Source of the DNA: Fuerstiella sp.
GTDB lineage: Bacteria; Planctomycetota; Planctomycetia; Planctomycetales; Planctomycetaceae
Direction: 5' to 3'
Length of the DNA stretch: 64,000 nt
Assembly (NCBI GenBank): GCA_029247265.1
Contig: JAQWLN010000081.1
Coordinates: 1-64,000, forward strand
Part shown: positions 51,500 to 60,243 of the stretch, piece after piece
Layout of the letters: every line of letters begins with the position of its first letter
Position numbering within the stretch: the stretch's first letter is position 1
Notes under the pieces: generated by a model
The model's database searches: none
Seen by the model: the letters and a program-made list of their open reading frames with translations, nothing else
What the model was told of the DNA's origin: nothing
Position numbers and translations under genes: made by a program

Positions 51500-51968
51500 G
51501 GCATGCCTCCTCGCAAATGAAAGGAAGAACAATACGCGGCCGGCCATCCGGCAGCGAAGGACGGATGAATGATCAGAATGAGTTGAATCAGAAAACAGCC
51601 CGTTGACGCGATTTGCGACCCGGACCGCGGATGGACAGTTGAGGCCGTGCGCAGCGAAACACTGTAGCACGACTGACGGGATTCTCGGACGGGAAGAAAC
51701 CGCGTTGACGATGGGGCAAACGTCGGCTTCTGATTGTGCGATGCCCGCAGCACGTGAATTTGTCTCACTAATCAGAAAAACGCTTTGAACATGCGGGATA
51801 ATTCGCCGTCTCAGCAGCCCGTGTCGGGCGCGAGTTGCCAGGGGCGTCGGACAGGCGGCTTTGATCTGAAGTTCTGCGGCATGCGAGACTCAGGTGACAC
51901 ACCCGAGCATTGTCGTCACACTTCACAGATTACCAGGGAACCAGTGACTGTTGAGAAAGGCGATACAT
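51500..51968. other. Divergent intergenic region upstream of the alpha/beta hydrolase
   Basis: This 469-base gap separates the disrupted membrane gene (minus) from the hydrolase (plus). Small frames on both strands (for example 51785-52039 plus) lack domains or good ribosome-binding sites. I see no gene, hairpin or other clear signal. Confidence 0.45.
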
Positions 51969-54080
51969 ATGCTTCGGTATCTTACGGTGGGCCTGCTGCT
52001 GACGTCTTCCGGATTACCTGCGGCGGATTGGTCACTTGATGAGAATCCGGAGCTTGCGAAATACTTTGCAGCGCAGGTGGCGAAGATTGAGTCGCAGGAT
52101 TCACTGCTGCAGTACAAGTCACTGGATGCATGGCAGGCCGCGAAACCAGAGTTACGAGAACAGCTCTTCGACATGCTGGGTCTTCACCCGCTGCCGCCGC
52201 GGACGCCGCTGAAACCTGAGCAGACGGGCGTTGTCGAAGAACAGGAGTTTCGGGTTGAAAACCTGCACTTTCAATCCATGCCGGGGCTATACGTGACTGC
52301 GAATCTCTATCTGCCGAAGGAAATCGACGGGCCGCTGCCGACCGTTCTTTATGTCTGCGGACATGCGCGTGTCACAGAAGGTGATGTCAGCTTCGGCAAT
52401 AAGACCGGCTATCAGCATCACGGAGCATGGTTCGCCCGCAACGGCTATGCATGCCTGACAATCGATACGGTGCAACTCGGCGAAATCGAAGGCATACATC
52501 ACGGCACGTATAAGTACGATCGCTGGTGGTGGAATGCAAGAGGTTATACCCCCGCCGGCGTCGAAGCGTGGAATTGTATTCGCGCTCTGGATTATCTGAA
52601 AACGCGTCCGGAAGTTGATGCCGATCGAATTGGCGTCACGGGCCGATCCGGCGGTGGCGCCTACAGCTGGTGGATCGCAGCCCTCGATGAAAGAATCAAA
52701 TGCGCCATTCCCGTTGCCGGCATCGCCACGCTTAGAAATCACGTCGTCGACGGCTGCGTGGAAGGCCACTGCGACTGCATGTATATGCTCAATACCCATC
52801 GCTGGGACTATGCCACAGTCGCAGCGCTGGTGGCTCCTCGTCCTCTGCTGATCAGCAATTCCGACAAGGACCTGATCTTTCCGCTGAATGGTGTCGTCGA
52901 AGTTCATCGACAGGTGCGGCACATCTATGAATTATACGAACAGCCGCTGAAGCTGGGACTGCAGATTACTGAGGGGCCACACAAGGATACTCAGGAATTA
53001 CGAGTCCACGCTTTCCGCTGGTTTAATCGGTGGCTCAGGGACGCCGACAGTTTAATCGAGAAGACTGCCACTAAGTTTTTCGAGCCAGCGCAGTTGCGGG
53101 TCTTTGCTGATCTTCCGGCCGACGAACGTAACACTTCGATCGACGAGGACTTTGTTCCGACGGTCAAACCGCTCGCCGAAAGGGCGGACAGCATCCTCCA
53201 GAATCAGCAGGTCTGGCTTGCGAAATCGCTTTATGTTTTGCGACAGAGGTGTTTCGCCGGCTGGCCTGAAGAACAGACGCCTCCGCGGTCGCCCACAGTT
53301 CGAGTCGAATCGCTCGACCAAACCAGCAGGGCACCCCGACTGACTGTGCGCCGGCTGCATTTTGACAGTCAGCAGCACGTGCCCGTCTCAGTCGACCTCG
53401 TTGTCAATACTGATGCTCCCGGCAATGGGAAGTCTGCAAGCGTCGATCTGAGTTCGCTGAACCTGCTCGTCGCAGACAGTGAGCTCTGGGCAGAATATGA
53501 ATCAGTAGTGCTGGGACGAACAGCTTCCCCTGACGCCGCACGCGACAATTCCGATACTGGCGTGTCAGCTGGCATGCTGCAGGAACAAATCAAACGCCTG
53601 AAGAACAAGGGGACCGCTCTGGCCGTGTTTGCCCCTCGCGGAATGGGACTGCATTCATGGAACGGTGACAGTAAGAAACAGACGCAGATTCGCCGTCGGT
53701 TTCAGTTGATCGGGACTACCGCAGACGCAATGCGTGTGTGGGATATTCGTCGTGCTGTTCAGGTTCTCCGTCAGCAGGTCGGTGACAAGGTTCGGTTGCA
53801 CTTGGTCGGCAGTGGAACGAATGCATGGCTGGCCGCGGCAGCTGCCGTTGTTCTCGACTCCGACATCGAGTCTGCTCGTCTGACAAATATTTCAGATGAC
53901 CGTGATCAACGTCCCGTGTTTCTGAACGCTGATCGCAGCTTCACACCCTCGGAACTGTTGGCACTTGCGGTGCATCGAACGGATGTTGTGACATTCGGGG
54001 CCGCGGACGGCCTGATTAAGTCTGTGGCCAGGCTGGCCCAGGATGCACAATGGGGCGGCGGGGATTTCACTGTCAAATAG
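51969..54080 (+). CDS. Secreted alpha/beta hydrolase (acetylxylan-esterase-like)
   Basis: 703 aa with a signal peptide (MLRYLTVGLLLTSSGLPAAD). ATG 51969 has AAAGG eight bases upstream. The alpha/beta hydrolase domain spans about 100-370: PTVLYVCGHARV, nucleophile elbow GVTGRSGGGAYSWW (Ser in GRSGG), CAIPVAGIATLRNH, an acidic residue in ISNSDKDLIFPL and a His in ITEGPHKDTQE. It resembles the acetyl-xylan esterase/cephalosporin deacetylase type found in planctomycete polysaccharide use. The last about 300 residues include a repeated-looking, partly hydrolase-like region (VRLHLVGSGTNAWLAAAAAV). Substrate unknown. It converges with the halogenase-like gene. Confidence 0.87.
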   Translation: MLRYLTVGLLLTSSGLPAADWSLDENPELAKYFAAQVAKIESQDSLLQYKSLDAWQAAKPELREQLFDMLGLHPLPPRTPLKPEQTGVVEEQEFRVENLHFQSMPGLYVTANLYLPKEIDGPLPTVLYVCGHARVTEGDVSFGNKTGYQHHGAWFARNGYACLTIDTVQLGEIEGIHHGTYKYDRWWWNARGYTPAGVEAWNCIRALDYLKTRPEVDADRIGVTGRSGGGAYSWWIAALDERIKCAIPVAGIATLRNHVVDGCVEGHCDCMYMLNTHRWDYATVAALVAPRPLLISNSDKDLIFPLNGVVEVHRQVRHIYELYEQPLKLGLQITEGPHKDTQELRVHAFRWFNRWLRDADSLIEKTATKFFEPAQLRVFADLPADERNTSIDEDFVPTVKPLAERADSILQNQQVWLAKSLYVLRQRCFAGWPEEQTPPRSPTVRVESLDQTSRAPRLTVRRLHFDSQQHVPVSVDLVVNTDAPGNGKSASVDLSSLNLLVADSELWAEYESVVLGRTASPDAARDNSDTGVSAGMLQEQIKRLKNKGTALAVFAPRGMGLHSWNGDSKKQTQIRRRFQLIGTTADAMRVWDIRRAVQVLRQQVGDKVRLHLVGSGTNAWLAAAAAVVLDSDIESARLTNISDDRDQRPVFLNADRSFTPSELLALAVHRTDVVTFGAADGLIKSVARLAQDAQWGGGDFTVK

Positions 54081-54099: not shown

Positions 54100-55587
54100 T
54101 CAGACCGGGGCGGCCGTGCGTGAGTACATGCCGCCACAATCGTCGTCCAGCAGGCCTGCGTGATTCCACGGCTGCAGCAATTTGCGGAGCTTGCCTTCGA
54201 ACTCGTTGCAAGCCTCGGACGTGCTGCCGGCATCGACGACTTTCTGTAAGTGGCTTCGTGCTGTGCGAACGGTATTGCGAAACTCGTGGTCGTTGGCGCG
54301 CAGGAATGACACATCGTTGTCGGCGGCCGTCTGTTCCATTGACGTGACGGCAGCGAAGTACAGCATGCACCAGTCACACCACAGTCTGAAACTGGGCAGT
54401 GCGGCATAGCATCCTTCGACCAGTTCATCAACGTTGCGCAATTCATTGATAAGCTGGTCTGAATAATGTCGATGATTCTCTTCTTTCTGACGGTCCGAGG
54501 AGCTCAGCAAAATTGCGGCCAGGCGTCTGATGCCGAACAGCGTGTGAGCGATGCCCGTGCTGTGCAGCGGGTCAATGAAACCAGCTGTGTTCGGCAGTGC
54601 TGCCCAGCTCTTTCCGGCGGCCTCAGTGGTCAGTCGCTGAAGACGCTGAGTTCGCTGAATTCCGGTATCCGGACGGACGACAGCGGCAGAGCTGAACTGT
54701 CGCTGCAGAAACGCGAAGGACTGGATCTGTCGGTCCCATTCTTCCGTTGTGTTCAGCTCCGGGGAACGCTGCGTGTCAGGAATGCGGTCGTCGAACACAA
54801 AGCCAGCGCTGACGGAATCGTCGTCGAACCTGAGTTGCCACATCCAACCATTTTTCAGCACGTGGTGTACGGCGGCGGCATCGCACGGGAACGGGTGGCG
54901 GCTGCAATCCACGCCGCCCTCTCGGAACATACTTTCCACAGTTGGTACGTTGGTGAAATGTCCGAAGATCGCTCGCGAGTTTGTCTTCAATGTGGCGGTC
55001 TGCGACGCAATATTCAAATGGTCGAGCAGTGCGGAAGTGGAGCCCGTTGCATCCACGATGAACGGAGCTGAGATCTGGAAGCTCGATTCGTTGGCGACTC
55101 CTGTTACGCGCCAGTGGCCGTCGTCCCTGGCCAATGAATAACCTGCGCCTTCAAATTGAATGACACCGGACCGGCCGGCCTGCTCGAACATATATGCGTC
55201 GACATCGCTTCGTAACCAGTGAGTGTCAGAAGATTCGTTGCTGCTGCTGGCTGTGACCAGCATCTGGGCCGCTTCGTCGAAGTCGCGTTCTGTGCTGTGT
55301 CCAAAGTAACTAAAGCCGCGTTTCAGGCCGCAGGTGATGTCCGGACAGCATTGCTTCCACGTGCCATACTGAGTCAGTGGTAGCAGTTCGGGAAGATCGT
55401 ATTGCTCTGCCAGGGTGGCCAACGTTGTGTCGGCCAGTGGAGTTGACGATTCTCCAATGGCGAATCGGGGATGTCGGGCTCGATCGACGACGGCGACGCT
55501 TCGCCCTGCTCTGGCAAGAATCATGCTCAACAGACTGCCGCCGAAACCGGAACCCAGGATCAGAATATCAACATTGCGAACGCTCAT
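54100..55587 (-). CDS. FAD-dependent halogenase-like oxidoreductase
   Basis: 495 aa of the flavin-dependent halogenase/monooxygenase superfamily. The FAD Rossmann motif is GSGFGG near residues 12-17; IGESSTP near 44-50 matches the GE.T.P site; Lys 89 in CGLKRGFSYF could correspond to the catalytic Lys; WMWQLRF stands in the place of WxWxIP, and FIDPLHSTGIAHTL is the usual late flavin motif. A strict tryptophan-halogenase call is not justified because WxWxIP is altered. It may halogenate, hydroxylate or desaturate a small molecule or carrier-bound substrate. It is the third gene of the minus-strand cassette with the radical SAM and AsnB-like genes (128 bases after the former). Confidence 0.82.
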   Translation of the reverse strand: MSVRNVDILILGSGFGGSLLSMILARAGRSVAVVDRARHPRFAIGESSTPLADTTLATLAEQYDLPELLPLTQYGTWKQCCPDITCGLKRGFSYFGHSTERDFDEAAQMLVTASSSNESSDTHWLRSDVDAYMFEQAGRSGVIQFEGAGYSLARDDGHWRVTGVANESSFQISAPFIVDATGSTSALLDHLNIASQTATLKTNSRAIFGHFTNVPTVESMFREGGVDCSRHPFPCDAAAVHHVLKNGWMWQLRFDDDSVSAGFVFDDRIPDTQRSPELNTTEEWDRQIQSFAFLQRQFSSAAVVRPDTGIQRTQRLQRLTTEAAGKSWAALPNTAGFIDPLHSTGIAHTLFGIRRLAAILLSSSDRQKEENHRHYSDQLINELRNVDELVEGCYAALPSFRLWCDWCMLYFAAVTSMEQTAADNDVSFLRANDHEFRNTVRTARSHLQKVVDAGSTSEACNEFEGKLRKLLQPWNHAGLLDDDCGGMYSRTAAPV

Positions 55588-55715
55588 AACGCCGCCTGAT
55601 GAAACGTTTGGTCACGATGGACGTACTGGAAGAGAGTCATGGTTTCTTCAAAAGACCGATTCTCTCGAGTCCTTACGTGTCGCCGCATGTTGAATGGTTC
55701 GTTTTTCATGGATCG

Positions 55716-56669
55716 TCAGCCGCAATGGCCGCAAACGACGGGCGACGTTGCACGTTGAGAGAGATTGATCGTGTTTAGGCGTTCGATCCTTGCAGTCGCA
55801 CACGGGGGACATTCAGAAAACTGTTCGGCTTCCCACAGATCCGCGAAGACACGTCCGCGTTTCCACCCGAGCGTTTCGTTGATGACACTCTCCAGTGACC
55901 GCAACTCTGGAGGTTGAAACCGTCCGGAGTGCTGCAGCCTGTCCATGATTCCGTTTCCAGCGCGAGTCGGAATTACGGAGCAGCAATTGACACCGTGGTC
56001 GAATGCGAATCGCACCGACTCAATGGCCCGTTCAATGCCCTGCTCTTCTGACGTGTCCGGTGGTTTCAGCAGAATGAAAGCGCGTATTCGAATGCCGTGC
56101 CCCCGCAGGAATTCGCAGGCGCGGGCAAAATTCTCGGTCGTCATTTGTTTGTTCAGTTGCTGCAGAGTCGGCTGGTGTGACGTCTCCAGTCCGATCGCAA
56201 CTTCCAGTTGAGTGCCGCACAGGTTCTGGAAATCGACGCAGAGGTCGTTGCACAGACGTGGATGGTTCTCGACGATCACTGTCCTGAAGCCGGCGACGAG
56301 CGACGCGATTTCTGAAAAATCGCTTTGAGGGATGGCTTGTGCGTCAAAAAAATTGCCGCTGTTGTACAGCTTGATGTGTCGTGCCGGCGGCAGATGTTCG
56401 ACAGCATGTCTGATCTGCTCAGGAATGGCACCAACAGGAACTCGGTCGTCCGTGGTGTTCTTCCACAGGTCGCACATCAGACAGCGAAACGGGCACTCGC
56501 GATTTGACAGAAAGACCGTGGCCACGTCTTCCACCTTGCCATCGGCACAGTGTTCCTGTTCCACCAACATGTGATACGGTCGAAACGGGTCTACGGAATT
56601 CTTTGGGCCGCGTGCCTGCAGAATCTCGGTATCCGTGTGGTTTACAGCGCCTGGGCGATTGGAAGTCAT
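55716..56669 (-). CDS. Radical SAM enzyme (TIGR01210/RaSEA-like)
   Basis: 317 aa. The [4Fe-4S]-binding CX3CX2C motif is at Cys59, Cys63 and Cys66 (ECPFRCLMCDLW), and the sequence HIKLYNSGNFFD with VENHPRL matches the archaeosine-type RaSEA/TIGR01210 group. VAIGLETSHQPTLQQLNK and IRAFILLKPPDTSEEQG continue the barrel. The C-terminus has further Cys pairs (CPPCATA, CGHCG) that could bind a second cluster or zinc. Start ATG 56669. It lies 108 bases downstream of the AsnB-like gene. The reaction is not predictable; the group includes tRNA-modifying enzymes, so a natural-product role would be inference. Confidence 0.85.
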   Translation of the reverse strand: MTSNRPGAVNHTDTEILQARGPKNSVDPFRPYHMLVEQEHCADGKVEDVATVFLSNRECPFRCLMCDLWKNTTDDRVPVGAIPEQIRHAVEHLPPARHIKLYNSGNFFDAQAIPQSDFSEIASLVAGFRTVIVENHPRLCNDLCVDFQNLCGTQLEVAIGLETSHQPTLQQLNKQMTTENFARACEFLRGHGIRIRAFILLKPPDTSEEQGIERAIESVRFAFDHGVNCCSVIPTRAGNGIMDRLQHSGRFQPPELRSLESVINETLGWKRGRVFADLWEAEQFSECPPCATARIERLNTINLSQRATSPVVCGHCG

Positions 56670-56777
56670 GTGCCTGACCGTTCTGACCGGCACCACGCCG
56701 CTTCAACTTCCGTACATGTGTCGGCCGGACTATGTTGCCGTAGCAGTTTCATCAACGAGACGTTTCTAGCAGTGTCG

Positions 56778-58118
56778 CTACACAAACGTTTTGCGGAACG
56801 CGTCGCGGTAGCTTTCTTCGTCCGCCGGAAACAGTGATGCGAACGTTTCATCGACTGTGGCACCGTGCTGGAAACGGCGTTTTTCGAAGATTGGCATAGT
56901 GAGACCGGTGATCTGCTCGACACCACGGCGAACAATTTCGCCCTTCAATTCATACAGCTTTTCGTTCTGCCAGTCGGTGAGCTCAATAAAAGGGATCCCT
57001 TCAGAGACCTCAATGACGTTTGGCAGAGCGAACGGGCTGAGCCCCTTGAAACCGAATCGCCGCACAGGTGCTGATGATCGCACATGGCCTCGGCTTTGTC
57101 CGCCACTGTAGGTCAGTGAATGTTTGACCGCGTCAATGCCCCAGCCTTCGTGGTACAGCATTAGATTGTTCAGCACGCTGCGAATGGTCAGTTCGCTGTT
57201 TTCTTCAATGGGATAGTCTTTCAGATTTTCATCGCCGCCGTCCCCGTCAAGCAGGTACTTCCAGTCCGGGTAGCGGTTGCGAATTTCGCGACACAGAGCC
57301 AGCGCCATGGTTGCCGACTGAACATCAAGCGGTTTGTAGTCTTCGATCAGCTGCACGGCGTCTTTGTAATCGATGGACGCGGCCGGCACATCAATCACTT
57401 CCAGAAACATACTCAGATCCAGATCGCTCATGAATTGATGCGCCTGTTCCGCGTCGCGACCATTCTCATCGACAGACAGAGTGAAGGCCTTCAGTCGTCC
57501 GGGCGATTCACCTCGCTTCAGCATGCAGTCATATGTGGCGCAGAACACGGCGCCGCTGTCGATGCCGCCACTGAACAGAACGCCGATGGGTTCAGAAGTC
57601 GGGATCTGATCCAGCCAGTAGGCGATTTCGGTCTGCAACGCCGAAATGTAGGCGTACCCGATTTCGTCCAGGTCAGTGGACAGACGATTACGTTCCGGCG
57701 TGAAGAAACGAGTATACGTCGGGCTGGGATCCGGACAGCCGACCAGCGCAAGCTCGACGATATGATGAGCAGGCACCATTCGGGTGTACGACGGATGAAA
57801 CTGGTCGTCCAGACCCTCAGCTTTCAGCCATTCCAGAATCTCATCCATCCGCTCCGCGACAATCAGGCAGGGACCATCAATTTGCTTGGCCAGAAAATAC
57901 CTCAGCGGACGCCCGATGGACCGAGCCATGCGAATGATGTGACCGTTGCGATGGACCAGCGCAAACTGGCCATCGATTTCACGGAGTTTCTGCGCGTCTC
58001 CGGCCCCCAGGATTTCAATGGCGTCTTCGACGGTGGAGTTGAACAGTGTGTTAGCTTCGGGATCGAGCAGATTGACGAAGCGTTCGATGTATTTGTGATC
58101 CGACACGGGTAGTCCCAT
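56778..58118 (-). CDS. Asparagine-synthase-like protein without glutaminase cysteine
   Basis: 446 aa. The C-terminal half is an ATP-pyrophosphatase domain: LFSGGIDSGAVFCAT (PP-loop SGGIDS near residues 183-188) and YLLDGDGGDENLKDY. The N-terminal half resembles the amidotransferase fold (EIDGQFALVHRNGHIIRMARS) but does not start with the Cys needed to release ammonia from glutamine. This is the pattern of beta-lactam and related synthetases, which adenylate a carboxylate and join it to an amine. Start ATG 58118 is preferred; an upstream TTG (58169) has poor context. A hairpin separates it from the lipoprotein gene. It is the first gene of the three-gene cassette. Confidence 0.85.
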   Translation of the reverse strand: MGLPVSDHKYIERFVNLLDPEANTLFNSTVEDAIEILGAGDAQKLREIDGQFALVHRNGHIIRMARSIGRPLRYFLAKQIDGPCLIVAERMDEILEWLKAEGLDDQFHPSYTRMVPAHHIVELALVGCPDPSPTYTRFFTPERNRLSTDLDEIGYAYISALQTEIAYWLDQIPTSEPIGVLFSGGIDSGAVFCATYDCMLKRGESPGRLKAFTLSVDENGRDAEQAHQFMSDLDLSMFLEVIDVPAASIDYKDAVQLIEDYKPLDVQSATMALALCREIRNRYPDWKYLLDGDGGDENLKDYPIEENSELTIRSVLNNLMLYHEGWGIDAVKHSLTYSGGQSRGHVRSSAPVRRFGFKGLSPFALPNVIEVSEGIPFIELTDWQNEKLYELKGEIVRRGVEQITGLTMPIFEKRRFQHGATVDETFASLFPADEESYRDAFRKTFV

Positions 58119-58176: not shown

Positions 58177-58209
58177 AGAGCCGCCGTCTTTCGAAAAGAC
58201 GGCGGCTCT
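58177..58209 (-). terminator. Hairpin upstream of the AsnB-like gene
   Basis: A perfect 14-bp stem (AGAGCCGCCGTCTT/AAGACGGCGGCTCT) with a TCGAA loop is followed by TTTGC on the minus strand. It lies about 90 bases after the lipoprotein stop and 59 bases before the AsnB-like start. It probably ends the glmM-lipoprotein transcript, making the cassette a separate unit. Confidence 0.75.
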
Positions 58210-58299: not shown

Positions 58300-58731
58300 C
58301 TACTTTGTCTGCGCGGAGGCCGGGCCAGGCGTCACTGCCTGAAGCAGTTTGGCGACATCCGGCTGCGTCAGTTTCCAGGGGCCTTTCCGTTCCAGTACCT
58401 GGTTGCCGAAGCCACTGTGTTGCTGCAGCCATGCAATCTGTGAGGTCTGGTTCACAACCAATGAGTAACGAATTGCGCTGACAGAGTTGCCCTGCGCCGT
58501 TGGGATGGGCAGAACAACGGGAGGCAGCGAAGTGGTGGCAACCTGAGTGACGCCCTCATCCGGTGGCGTGGCCAACAATCGCTTGACCCATTCCGAATTG
58601 TCGGCGGCGGGACTCAGCGATGTCGCCGTTTGCTGCATCGAGGCTTGTTTAATTGTTTCCGGGCCGGAACAACCCAGGATCATGACTGATGTCAGCAGTA
58701 TGCTGACGATTGGTGAGATGTTGTGTGTCAT
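58300..58731 (-). CDS. Small hypothetical lipoprotein
   Basis: 143 aa with a lipoprotein signal (SILLTSVMILGCSG). The mature part is short, polar and shows no recognised fold; segments include EWVKRLLATPPDEG and NQTSQIAWLQQHSGFG. Its ATG 58731 overlaps the stop of glmM by four bases (ATGA), showing translational coupling, so it is the second gene of that operon. Function unknown. Confidence 0.7.
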   Translation of the reverse strand: MTHNISPIVSILLTSVMILGCSGPETIKQASMQQTATSLSPAADNSEWVKRLLATPPDEGVTQVATTSLPPVVLPIPTAQGNSVSAIRYSLVVNQTSQIAWLQQHSGFGNQVLERKGPWKLTQPDVAKLLQAVTPGPASAQTK

Positions 58732-60095
58732 GATTGACCTCCCGCAACGCCGACAGCCTGCTTCACGACATTCATTGCCAGCCGACATAGTGCTTTTGCG
58801 TCTTCCGTTGCCGGTGCTTCTGCGATGACTCGAAGAATCGGTTCCGTATTGCTGGCTCGAACCTGAACCCAGCGATCCGGCCAGTCGAGCCGCAGGCCGT
58901 CGCCTTCTGATACCGTGGCGTCCTTGAATTGTTTCCGCAGGGCTTTACATGCATCGGTGACTGATTCCTTTGGGCACACAAACTTGTCTTTCACGATTGT
59001 GTAAAACGGAAGTTCGTCCGCCCATGTGTCCAGCGTGGTCCCTCGTTTGGCAAGGCCGTCAAGAACATAAGCCATCGACACCAGACTGTCACGGACGTAT
59101 CCGATGCTCGGTTCGATAACTCCGCCGTTGCCTTCACCTCCGAGCACCGCCTGGACCGCTCGCATTTTGGCACAGACGTGAGCTTCTCCGACAAAGGATC
59201 GGTGAAACTGACAGCCATGTTTTTCGGCGATGTCGGCTGTGATTCGACTTGTTGAACCGTTGACCACGAATGGCCCCTTACGCGTTTCCAGAACATGATC
59301 GGCTGCCAGGGCCAGCGTCAGTTCTTCGCCAATGTAATGGCCGGTGTTGTCGACGATTGCCAGGCGGTCAGCATCCGGGTCCTGGGCGAACCCGGCGTCG
59401 GCCTTGTGGCTTACAACGGCCGCACAAAGATCGGACAGGTTCTGTTCGACCGGTTCGGGAATGTGCTCGAACTTTCCATCCGGCGTACCGCCCAGCACAA
59501 CAACGTCGCACCCGAGCTCTTTAAGCAGTCGAGGTCCGCAGGTGGCACCACTGCCGTGGTTGCAGTCGATGACCACCTTGAAGCGGCGTTTCCGGATCTC
59601 TTCGACGTCCACCAGATCCAGAACATTTTTGATGTGAGGCCCGGCCGGATCGTCGACGGTCGTGACCGAACCGATTTCTGTCCAGTCTTTCCAGATGATG
59701 CCATCTTCTTCCAGGATTCGGAGCAACTGCTGGCCCAGTTCGCGATTGAATACGGATCCATCCGGTGCGAATGGTTTCAGTCCATTCCATTCGATGGGAT
59801 TGTGACTGGCGGTGATCATCAGGCCTCCCGCCGCGCCGTGGTGCTTAATGAGCACTCCGCAGGTCGGTGTTGTGGAGATGCCGGCATCCAGGACTTCACA
59901 GCCTGTTGCCAGCAATCCAGATACAACAGCATGATAGATCACCGAACCAGTGCTGCGACCATCTCGGGAAACGACCACTTTGCCACCGCTGAACATCGTG
60001 CCCAGAGCCGCCGCAAATTCCGTCACGTACAACGGGTCCAGACCATCTCCGACAATGCCGCGGAGTCCGGAGATGCTTAGAATTCGAGTACTCAC
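58728..60095 (-). CDS. glmM: Phosphohexomutase, phosphoglucosamine mutase-like
   Basis: 455 aa alpha-D-phosphohexomutase, probably phosphoglucosamine mutase converting glucosamine-6-phosphate to the 1-phosphate for peptidoglycan and surface glycans. The phosphoserine loop is GLMITASHNPIEWNG; metal-binding DPDADRLAIVD, substrate-binding GEGNGGVI and phosphate-binding RASNTEPILRV are all seen. GTG 60095 is chosen because AGGGAGG stands about six bases upstream; a GTG 21 bases earlier is a weaker option. Phosphomannomutase or phosphoglucomutase activity cannot be excluded from sequence alone. Confidence 0.88.
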   Translation of the reverse strand: MSTRILSISGLRGIVGDGLDPLYVTEFAAALGTMFSGGKVVVSRDGRSTGSVIYHAVVSGLLATGCEVLDAGISTTPTCGVLIKHHGAAGGLMITASHNPIEWNGLKPFAPDGSVFNRELGQQLLRILEEDGIIWKDWTEIGSVTTVDDPAGPHIKNVLDLVDVEEIRKRRFKVVIDCNHGSGATCGPRLLKELGCDVVVLGGTPDGKFEHIPEPVEQNLSDLCAAVVSHKADAGFAQDPDADRLAIVDNTGHYIGEELTLALAADHVLETRKGPFVVNGSTSRITADIAEKHGCQFHRSFVGEAHVCAKMRAVQAVLGGEGNGGVIEPSIGYVRDSLVSMAYVLDGLAKRGTTLDTWADELPFYTIVKDKFVCPKESVTDACKALRKQFKDATVSEGDGLRLDWPDRWVQVRASNTEPILRVIAEAPATEDAKALCRLAMNVVKQAVGVAGGQS

Positions 60096-60243
60096 AGTGT
60101 CCTCCCTGTGATCCACCTACAATTAACGCCGTAAACGACGCCAGTCTCAAGAGAATGGCGAAGTGTAGCTACTTGCGGCCGAGTGTGAATAGCTGATGTT
60201 TCTGCGGCCGTTTGGGTACCTGTCGACGGTCGGTCCCCTCGGG

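Follow-up and report, generated by a model that had tools for sequence, protein, structure and literature searches.

Do three adjacent genes of different enzyme families on one strand of a planctomycete contig serve a common pathway, and what could this pathway make? We examined this in a 64,000-nucleotide stretch of DNA from Fuerstiella sp. (assembly GCA_029247265.1, contig JAQWLN010000081.1, positions 1 to 64,000), called the window below. Its positions 54100-58118 encode an AsnB-like ligase, a radical S-adenosylmethionine (SAM) enzyme and a halogenase-like flavoenzyme, together called the trio. The association of the trio is not due to chance. We observed the gene families and their motifs, the recurrent adjacency of the genes, and their co-inheritance with a fourth gene encoding a large protein, T. 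It is very likely that the trio and T function together. The best-supported grouping is one system consisting of T, the ligase and the radical SAM enzyme, with the flavoenzyme added in planctomycetes and some other bacteria. The trio genes are as follows:

56778-58118, minus strand: AsnB-like ligase of the beta-lactam-synthetase fold, 446 amino acids, ATG at 58118 and stop at 56778 (Pfam PF00733, alignment, AF2/Foldseek)
55716-56669, minus strand: radical SAM enzyme of the RaSEA/QueL/Elp3 group, 317 amino acids from ATG (TIGR01210, profile, Foldseek, motifs)
54100-55587, minus strand: phenolic-halogenase-like flavoenzyme, 495 amino acids (profile matches in PDB, halogenase motifs)

The radical SAM gene starts at ATG 56669, and an alternative GTG start at 56696 is possible. 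The ligase and radical SAM genes are separated by 108 bases, and the radical SAM and flavoenzyme genes by 128 bases. A preliminary description of this DNA had given the same positions and gaps and had named an AsnB fold without the glutaminase Cys, a CX3CX2C radical SAM enzyme and a flavin-halogenase-like protein. All of this was confirmed. Our analysis goes beyond it in the unlinked T, in the ligase and radical SAM enzyme as the core, and in the grouping of the latter with RaSEA, queuine lyase and Elp3.

Co-inheritance of the trio and protein T

We determined the distribution of the three genes in two sets of genomes. Across the phylum (148 genomes), the same 10 genomes hold all three, and the pattern is all-or-none. 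In seven of these carriers the flavoenzyme gene is distant from the ligase and radical SAM genes, and two carriers have the latter two genes on different contigs. Within the planctomycete family (120 genomes), the flavoenzyme was found in 72, the ligase in 71 and the radical SAM enzyme in 68; 64 of the 77 genomes with any of these genes have all three. Several of the incomplete ones are incomplete metagenome-assembled genomes (MAGs) or hold only the flavoenzyme, with weaker matches. Fisher tests, uncorrected for phylogeny, gave 5e-25 for the ligase and radical SAM enzyme, 2e-20 for the ligase and flavoenzyme, and 5e-24 for the radical SAM enzyme and flavoenzyme. The three genes form one contiguous block in 18 family genomes and are fully dispersed, with no two of them being neighbours, in another 18. 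The retention of all the dispersed genes is a stronger argument than the Fisher values. Pairwise protein distances of the three enzymes also correlate (r 0.77-0.83, 21-48 loci), which could be explained by linked vertical inheritance alone. The earlier proposal of a single functional unit is thus upheld by these counts. Random scattering in relatives had been named as an outcome that would refute it; the genes are indeed scattered in many relatives, yet they are inherited together.

T is a large protein with TPR, FG-GAP and ASPIC/UnbV parts and a conserved unnamed C-terminal domain, and it is encoded outside the window:

L105:7308-11045 (G000:C190), minus strand: T of this genome (TPR/FG-GAP/ASPIC-UnbV)

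It turned out that 62 of the 64 family genomes with the complete trio have T (Fisher 1e-17, 2e-14 and 1e-16). T directly adjoins the ligase gene in two planctomycetes (G225 and G277) and the flavoenzyme gene at two loci (L063 and L049). Planctomycetes and Bacteroidota share a strongly conserved stretch of 430 residues at the C-terminus of T, with many invariant positions, and no Pfam family was among the matches listed for this domain. Judged by eye, the N-terminus resembles a lipoprotein signal, and T is a probable surface lipoprotein. In the three planctomycete genomes inspected, T lies next to a conserved gene for an SMP-30/NHL-like propeller (L105:6374-11045, L107:8529-13156, L108:6951-11578).

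To examine gene neighbourhoods, we scanned genome contigs with the radical SAM enzyme, which gave 402 relatives, and examined the best 80 loci with flanks of up to 10 kb; because of this flank length, distant parts of operons may be missed. These loci come predominantly from Planctomycetota, and also from Bacteroidota, from a complete Rhodothermota genome (Roseithermus) and from MAGs labelled, as titled, Calditrichota, Gemmatimonadota or Acidobacteria. The cassette is not a binning artefact, since it is also carried by cultured species such as Maribacter luteus, Rhodopirellula sallentina and Aporhodopirellula aestuarii. The ligase gene is immediately 5' of the radical SAM gene in about 48 of the 80 loci, and the two genes are found side by side in Planctomycetota, Bacteroidota, Rhodothermota and in MAGs that bear the label Calditrichota or Gemmatimonadota. 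A flavoenzyme gene is present at 39 loci, in most of them directly 3' of the radical SAM gene. The ligase and radical SAM enzyme form the core; Bacteroidota and Calditrichota can do without the flavoenzyme. As the preliminary description had stated for the window, no precursor peptide, nonribosomal peptide synthetase or carrier protein is conserved near the examined loci. Three MAG contigs titled 'Candidatus Kuenenia stuttgartiensis' (L008, L012, L071) carry radical SAM-flavoenzyme loci typical of Planctomycetaceae relatives; their anammox labels are probably wrong.

In Bacteroidota, the ligase-radical SAM pair stands at the end of a long operon that also contains T. The operon begins with genes for a CRTAC1-like protein, a protein resembling the alpha subunit of hydrazine synthase (HZS), an HZS-beta-gamma-like fusion, a regulator propeller, a RidA-like protein and a binding protein. 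It continues with 3-deoxy-D-arabino-heptulosonate 7-phosphate (DAHP) synthase, which is absent from the Maribacter version, a second binding protein, T (~1190 amino acids), a second CRTAC1 protein, the ligase and the radical SAM enzyme. A MauG-like di-haem protein is also encoded in it. The ligase and radical SAM frames overlap by a few bases (for example, in L062).

Enzyme families and the chemistry they suggest

The ligase matches the Pfam family Asn_synthase (PF00733, 1.6e-13). Its glutaminase half starts past the position of Cys1, and an alignment of 22 members (mean column identity 72%) has no conserved Cys near the N-terminus and keeps SG(G/A)-I-D-S and DGDGGDEN. In the PP-loop motif SGGxDS (SGGIDS in the window protein), S183, G185, D187 and S188 are invariant in the 22 rows, and G184 is present in 19. 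The protein scored 43.6 bits against the asparagine synthase model TIGR01536, whose equivalog cutoff is 267. Judging by its sequence, it is not an ordinary asparagine synthase, a case that had been named beforehand as refuting the pathway. The best Foldseek matches of its AF2 model (pLDDT 80.8, residues 295-340 unreliable) are beta-lactam synthetase (1mb9, 2.4e-13, TM 0.58), carbapenam synthetase and asparagine synthetase. The first two enzymes share with our protein the AsnB fold with a dead glutaminase half, and they use an amine other than glutamine-derived ammonia. The window protein most likely joins a carboxylate to such an amine as well. In beta-lactam synthetase, the Tyr of the catalytic Tyr-Glu dyad occupies the position of AsnB Glu348. 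A profile alignment with human ASNS places D293, invariant in the 22 rows, at this position. Thus, our protein has Asp in place of that Tyr and of the catalytic Glu of asparagine synthetase. It also differs from the beta-lactam and carbapenam synthetases in its low identity to them (~17%), and no clavam or carbapenem genes lie nearby. The ligases of planctomycetes and Bacteroidota are 58-60% identical, and therefore the molecule made is probably invariant and biologically important.

The second enzyme matches the Pfam family Radical_SAM (3.2e-7). The three Cys residues of its CX3CX2C cluster motif (CPFRCLMC; C68, C72 and C75), as in RaSEA, are invariant in 27 relatives, and the motifs YNSG-FFD, E-H and GLET are invariant or almost so. 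All 27 relatives match a single NCBIfam model at E <= 1e-10, the RaSEA model TIGR01210. The window protein scored 108.6 bits against this model, under the cutoff of 212. The best PDB match of its profile is queuine lyase (4.7e-5), and the nearest fold to the predicted model (confidence 92.3) found by Foldseek is Elp3. Thus, the enzyme belongs with the RaSEA/queuine-lyase/Elp3 group. The best-known members of this group act on modified bases, several of them by breaking a C-N bond; queuine lyase and MnmL also cleave C-N bonds. RaSEA turns preQ0-lysine, the product of ArcS, into archaeosine, and ArcS of T. kodakarensis is active only in complex with RaSEA (PMC11298593). By analogy with this, the most likely target of our enzyme is a C-N bond in the ligase product; since its score is under the RaSEA cutoff, the cleavage is proposed by analogy only. 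RaSEA is its nearest named relative, and the two-step logic would be the same: one enzyme adds an amino donor, and a partner radical SAM enzyme converts the adduct. In contrast to the ArcS and RaSEA pair, the partner here is related to AsnB and beta-lactam synthetase rather than to ArcS, the system is bacterial, no tRNA-guanine transglycosylase (TGT) was seen nearby, and the sub-cutoff radical SAM enzyme is tied to a halogenase-like enzyme and a surface protein. The trio would be an analogue of the ArcS/RaSEA relay in its way of working, and it is not a member of it.

The flavoenzyme matches the Pfam family Trp_halogenase (5.9e-18). Its profile finds tetracycline 7-halogenase CtcP (6e-73) and the phloroglucinol halogenase PltM (2e-70) as full-length relatives in PDB. 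K89 aligns with the catalytic Lys of PltM. In 24 sequences, K89 and GxGxxG are invariant; in the WxW motif, W248 is invariant and W250 is present in 23. In F-x-D-P-L-x-S-x-G, D339, S343 and G345 are kept in all 24 sequences, F337 in 22 and P340 in 19. Every tested motif of the CtcP/PltM-type phenolic halogenases (the catalytic Lys, GxGxxG, WxW and F-x-D-P-x-x-S-x-G) is thus present. These features suggest that the enzyme most likely halogenates or hydroxylates a phenol. Unlike CtcP and PltM, it has no polyketide synthase or carrier protein in its unit and is co-inherited with the ligase, the radical SAM enzyme and T. The best NCBIfam matches of the flavoenzyme are QhpG, GoxB and LodB, all of them protein maturases, and its profile also reaches peptidyl tryptophan dihydroxylase (3e-7).

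Proposed pathway and alternative explanations

We consider it rather probable that the trio comprises the enzymes of one undescribed intracellular biosynthetic pathway whose product is used by T. The Cys-less ligase would adenylate a carboxylate and couple it to an amine other than glutamine ammonia, as beta-lactam and carbapenam synthetases do. The radical SAM enzyme would then act on the amide, most likely by a radical reaction that cleaves or rearranges the C-N bond and leaves the nitrogen behind, as RaSEA does after the lysine addition by ArcS. Where the CtcP/PltM-like flavoenzyme is present (Planctomycetota and some others), it would chlorinate, brominate or hydroxylate a phenolic part. 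Finally, the product would be delivered to T, which may bind or use it; this last step we infer from the enzyme families and the co-inheritance. The substrates, the order of the steps, the C-N chemistry and the halogenation are likewise inferred. The preliminary description had proposed activation, coupling and then oxidation or halogenation, an order that is plausible, and its interpretation as a whole is partly supported. The Bacteroidota operon encodes DAHP synthase and a RidA-like protein, which is a hint that the molecule derives from an aromatic precursor. Several observations weigh against the pathway. The flavoenzyme was found in none of 15 Bacteroidota genomes, and its step is therefore not universal. 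T occurs without any trio gene in six genomes and is missing from two genomes with the trio. The radical SAM score is below the RaSEA cutoff, and the Fisher values ignore shared ancestry.

The main alternative is that T, or the adjacent CRTAC1-like proteins, is itself the substrate, and that the enzymes alter a side chain before the protein is exported, as happens when quinone-cofactor enzymes mature (QhpD/QhpG, LodB, GoxB). This is possible, though we regard it as rather unlikely. T is the fourth co-inherited gene, its C-terminal domain has many invariant residues from Planctomycetota to Bacteroidota, the maturase and dihydroxylase matches of the flavoenzyme agree with such a role, and the MauG-like di-haem protein does as well. 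However, the flavoenzyme is much nearer to small-molecule halogenases (6e-73 against 3e-7), the fold of the ligase is that of small-molecule synthetases, and T also occurs in six genomes that lack all the enzymes. That the ligase and radical SAM enzyme act on 7-deazaguanine or a tRNA base, like RaSEA, QueL and MnmL, is improbable. The closest named relatives, RaSEA and queuine lyase, and the fold of tRNA-modifying Elp3 point this way. However, neither a TGT nor a queuosine gene was noticed around the inspected loci, and such a pathway gives the flavoenzyme and T no role. QueC occurs in all planctomycetes, whether or not they have the trio, and in six of seven Bacteroidota/Calditrichota carriers tested it is lacking or matched by a weak fragment only; this distribution disfavours a 7-deazaguanine substrate (QueC was tested, QueE was not).

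Lasso cyclases are Cys-less relatives of AsnB, and clusters for ribosomally synthesized and post-translationally modified peptides can hold radical SAM and halogenase enzymes. A cluster of this type with an overlooked short precursor peptide is nevertheless very improbable: the ligase and radical SAM frames overlap in Bacteroidota, the trio is dispersed in 18 genomes, no leader-binding or protease gene recurs at the loci, and no recurrent short open reading frame was seen, though those under 90 amino acids were not systematically compared. It is hardly credible that an asparagine synthase merely stands beside unrelated enzymes. The families are common and the cassette follows glmM in this genus, but the TIGR01536 score and the missing Cys1 speak against it, and the all-or-none co-inheritance already refutes it.

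Returning to the small-molecule pathway, its most specific version is that a new cofactor or ligand is made on an aromatic carboxylate by a relay of ligation and radical cleavage leading to amidation (AsnB-like and RaSEA-like enzymes), is halogenated in planctomycetes, serves the whole TPR/FG-GAP/ASPIC surface-protein family across several phyla, and acts together with the hydrazine-synthase-like haem proteins in Bacteroidota. We consider this version speculative and unlikely as a whole. In open-licence PubMed Central (PMC) literature we found no description of the combination of AsnB-like, radical SAM and halogenase-like proteins or T, in line with the preliminary description, and nothing on hydrazine synthase homologues outside anammox that describes the AsnB-radical SAM combination. 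If the main proposal is true, environmental bacteria of several phyla share a conserved pathway, which standard cluster finders may miss because its genes are often unlinked and carrier proteins and precursor peptides are lacking. It would open a concrete way to find out what large FG-GAP/ASPIC-UnbV surface proteins do. It would also test whether RaSEA-like C-N chemistry exists beyond base modification and offer a ligase-radical SAM pair for reconstitution.

Hydrazine-synthase-like proteins and the flanks of the cassette

HZS-alpha-like (Pfam HZS_alpha 7e-17) and beta-gamma-fusion-like proteins with c-haem motifs are encoded in non-anammox Bacteroidota (L102:12031-15495, L103:5700-9178, L104:10808-14252, L036:13726-17114), in one operon with the ligase-radical SAM pair, RidA and mostly DAHP synthase. 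The first genes of this operon resemble HZS alpha and beta-gamma of anammox bacteria. However, their scores are far under the curated cutoffs, and they do not track the trio in planctomycetes. In 120 planctomycete genomes they are patchy, paralogous and untied to the trio, and we rejected them as a universal partner. A phage or plasmid origin of the cassette was also rejected, with no plasmid match and no informative PHROG.

Upstream, the cassette is parted from glmM and a small lipoprotein-like gene by a hairpin:

58177-58209, minus strand: 15-bp hairpin, probable terminator, between the GlmM/lipoprotein genes and the cassette (RNA fold)

The preliminary description had taken this hairpin to separate the cassette from the upstream operon. 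It folds strongly (-35.7 kcal/mol, z = -5.25) and is probably a terminator, although the U tract is weak and the hairpin is missing from the list of the terminator scan. The GlmM-like phosphomutase (58300-60116 of the window) keeps its synteny with the ligase gene in the closest relatives (L001-L004, L007), and in four of these five the small lipoprotein-like gene lies between them. On the other side, a large two-part abhydrolase resembling acetyl-xylan and glucuronyl esterases (51951-54080) is tail to tail with the flavoenzyme gene, about 20 bases away. It is 78% identical to its counterpart in the nearest relative (L001).

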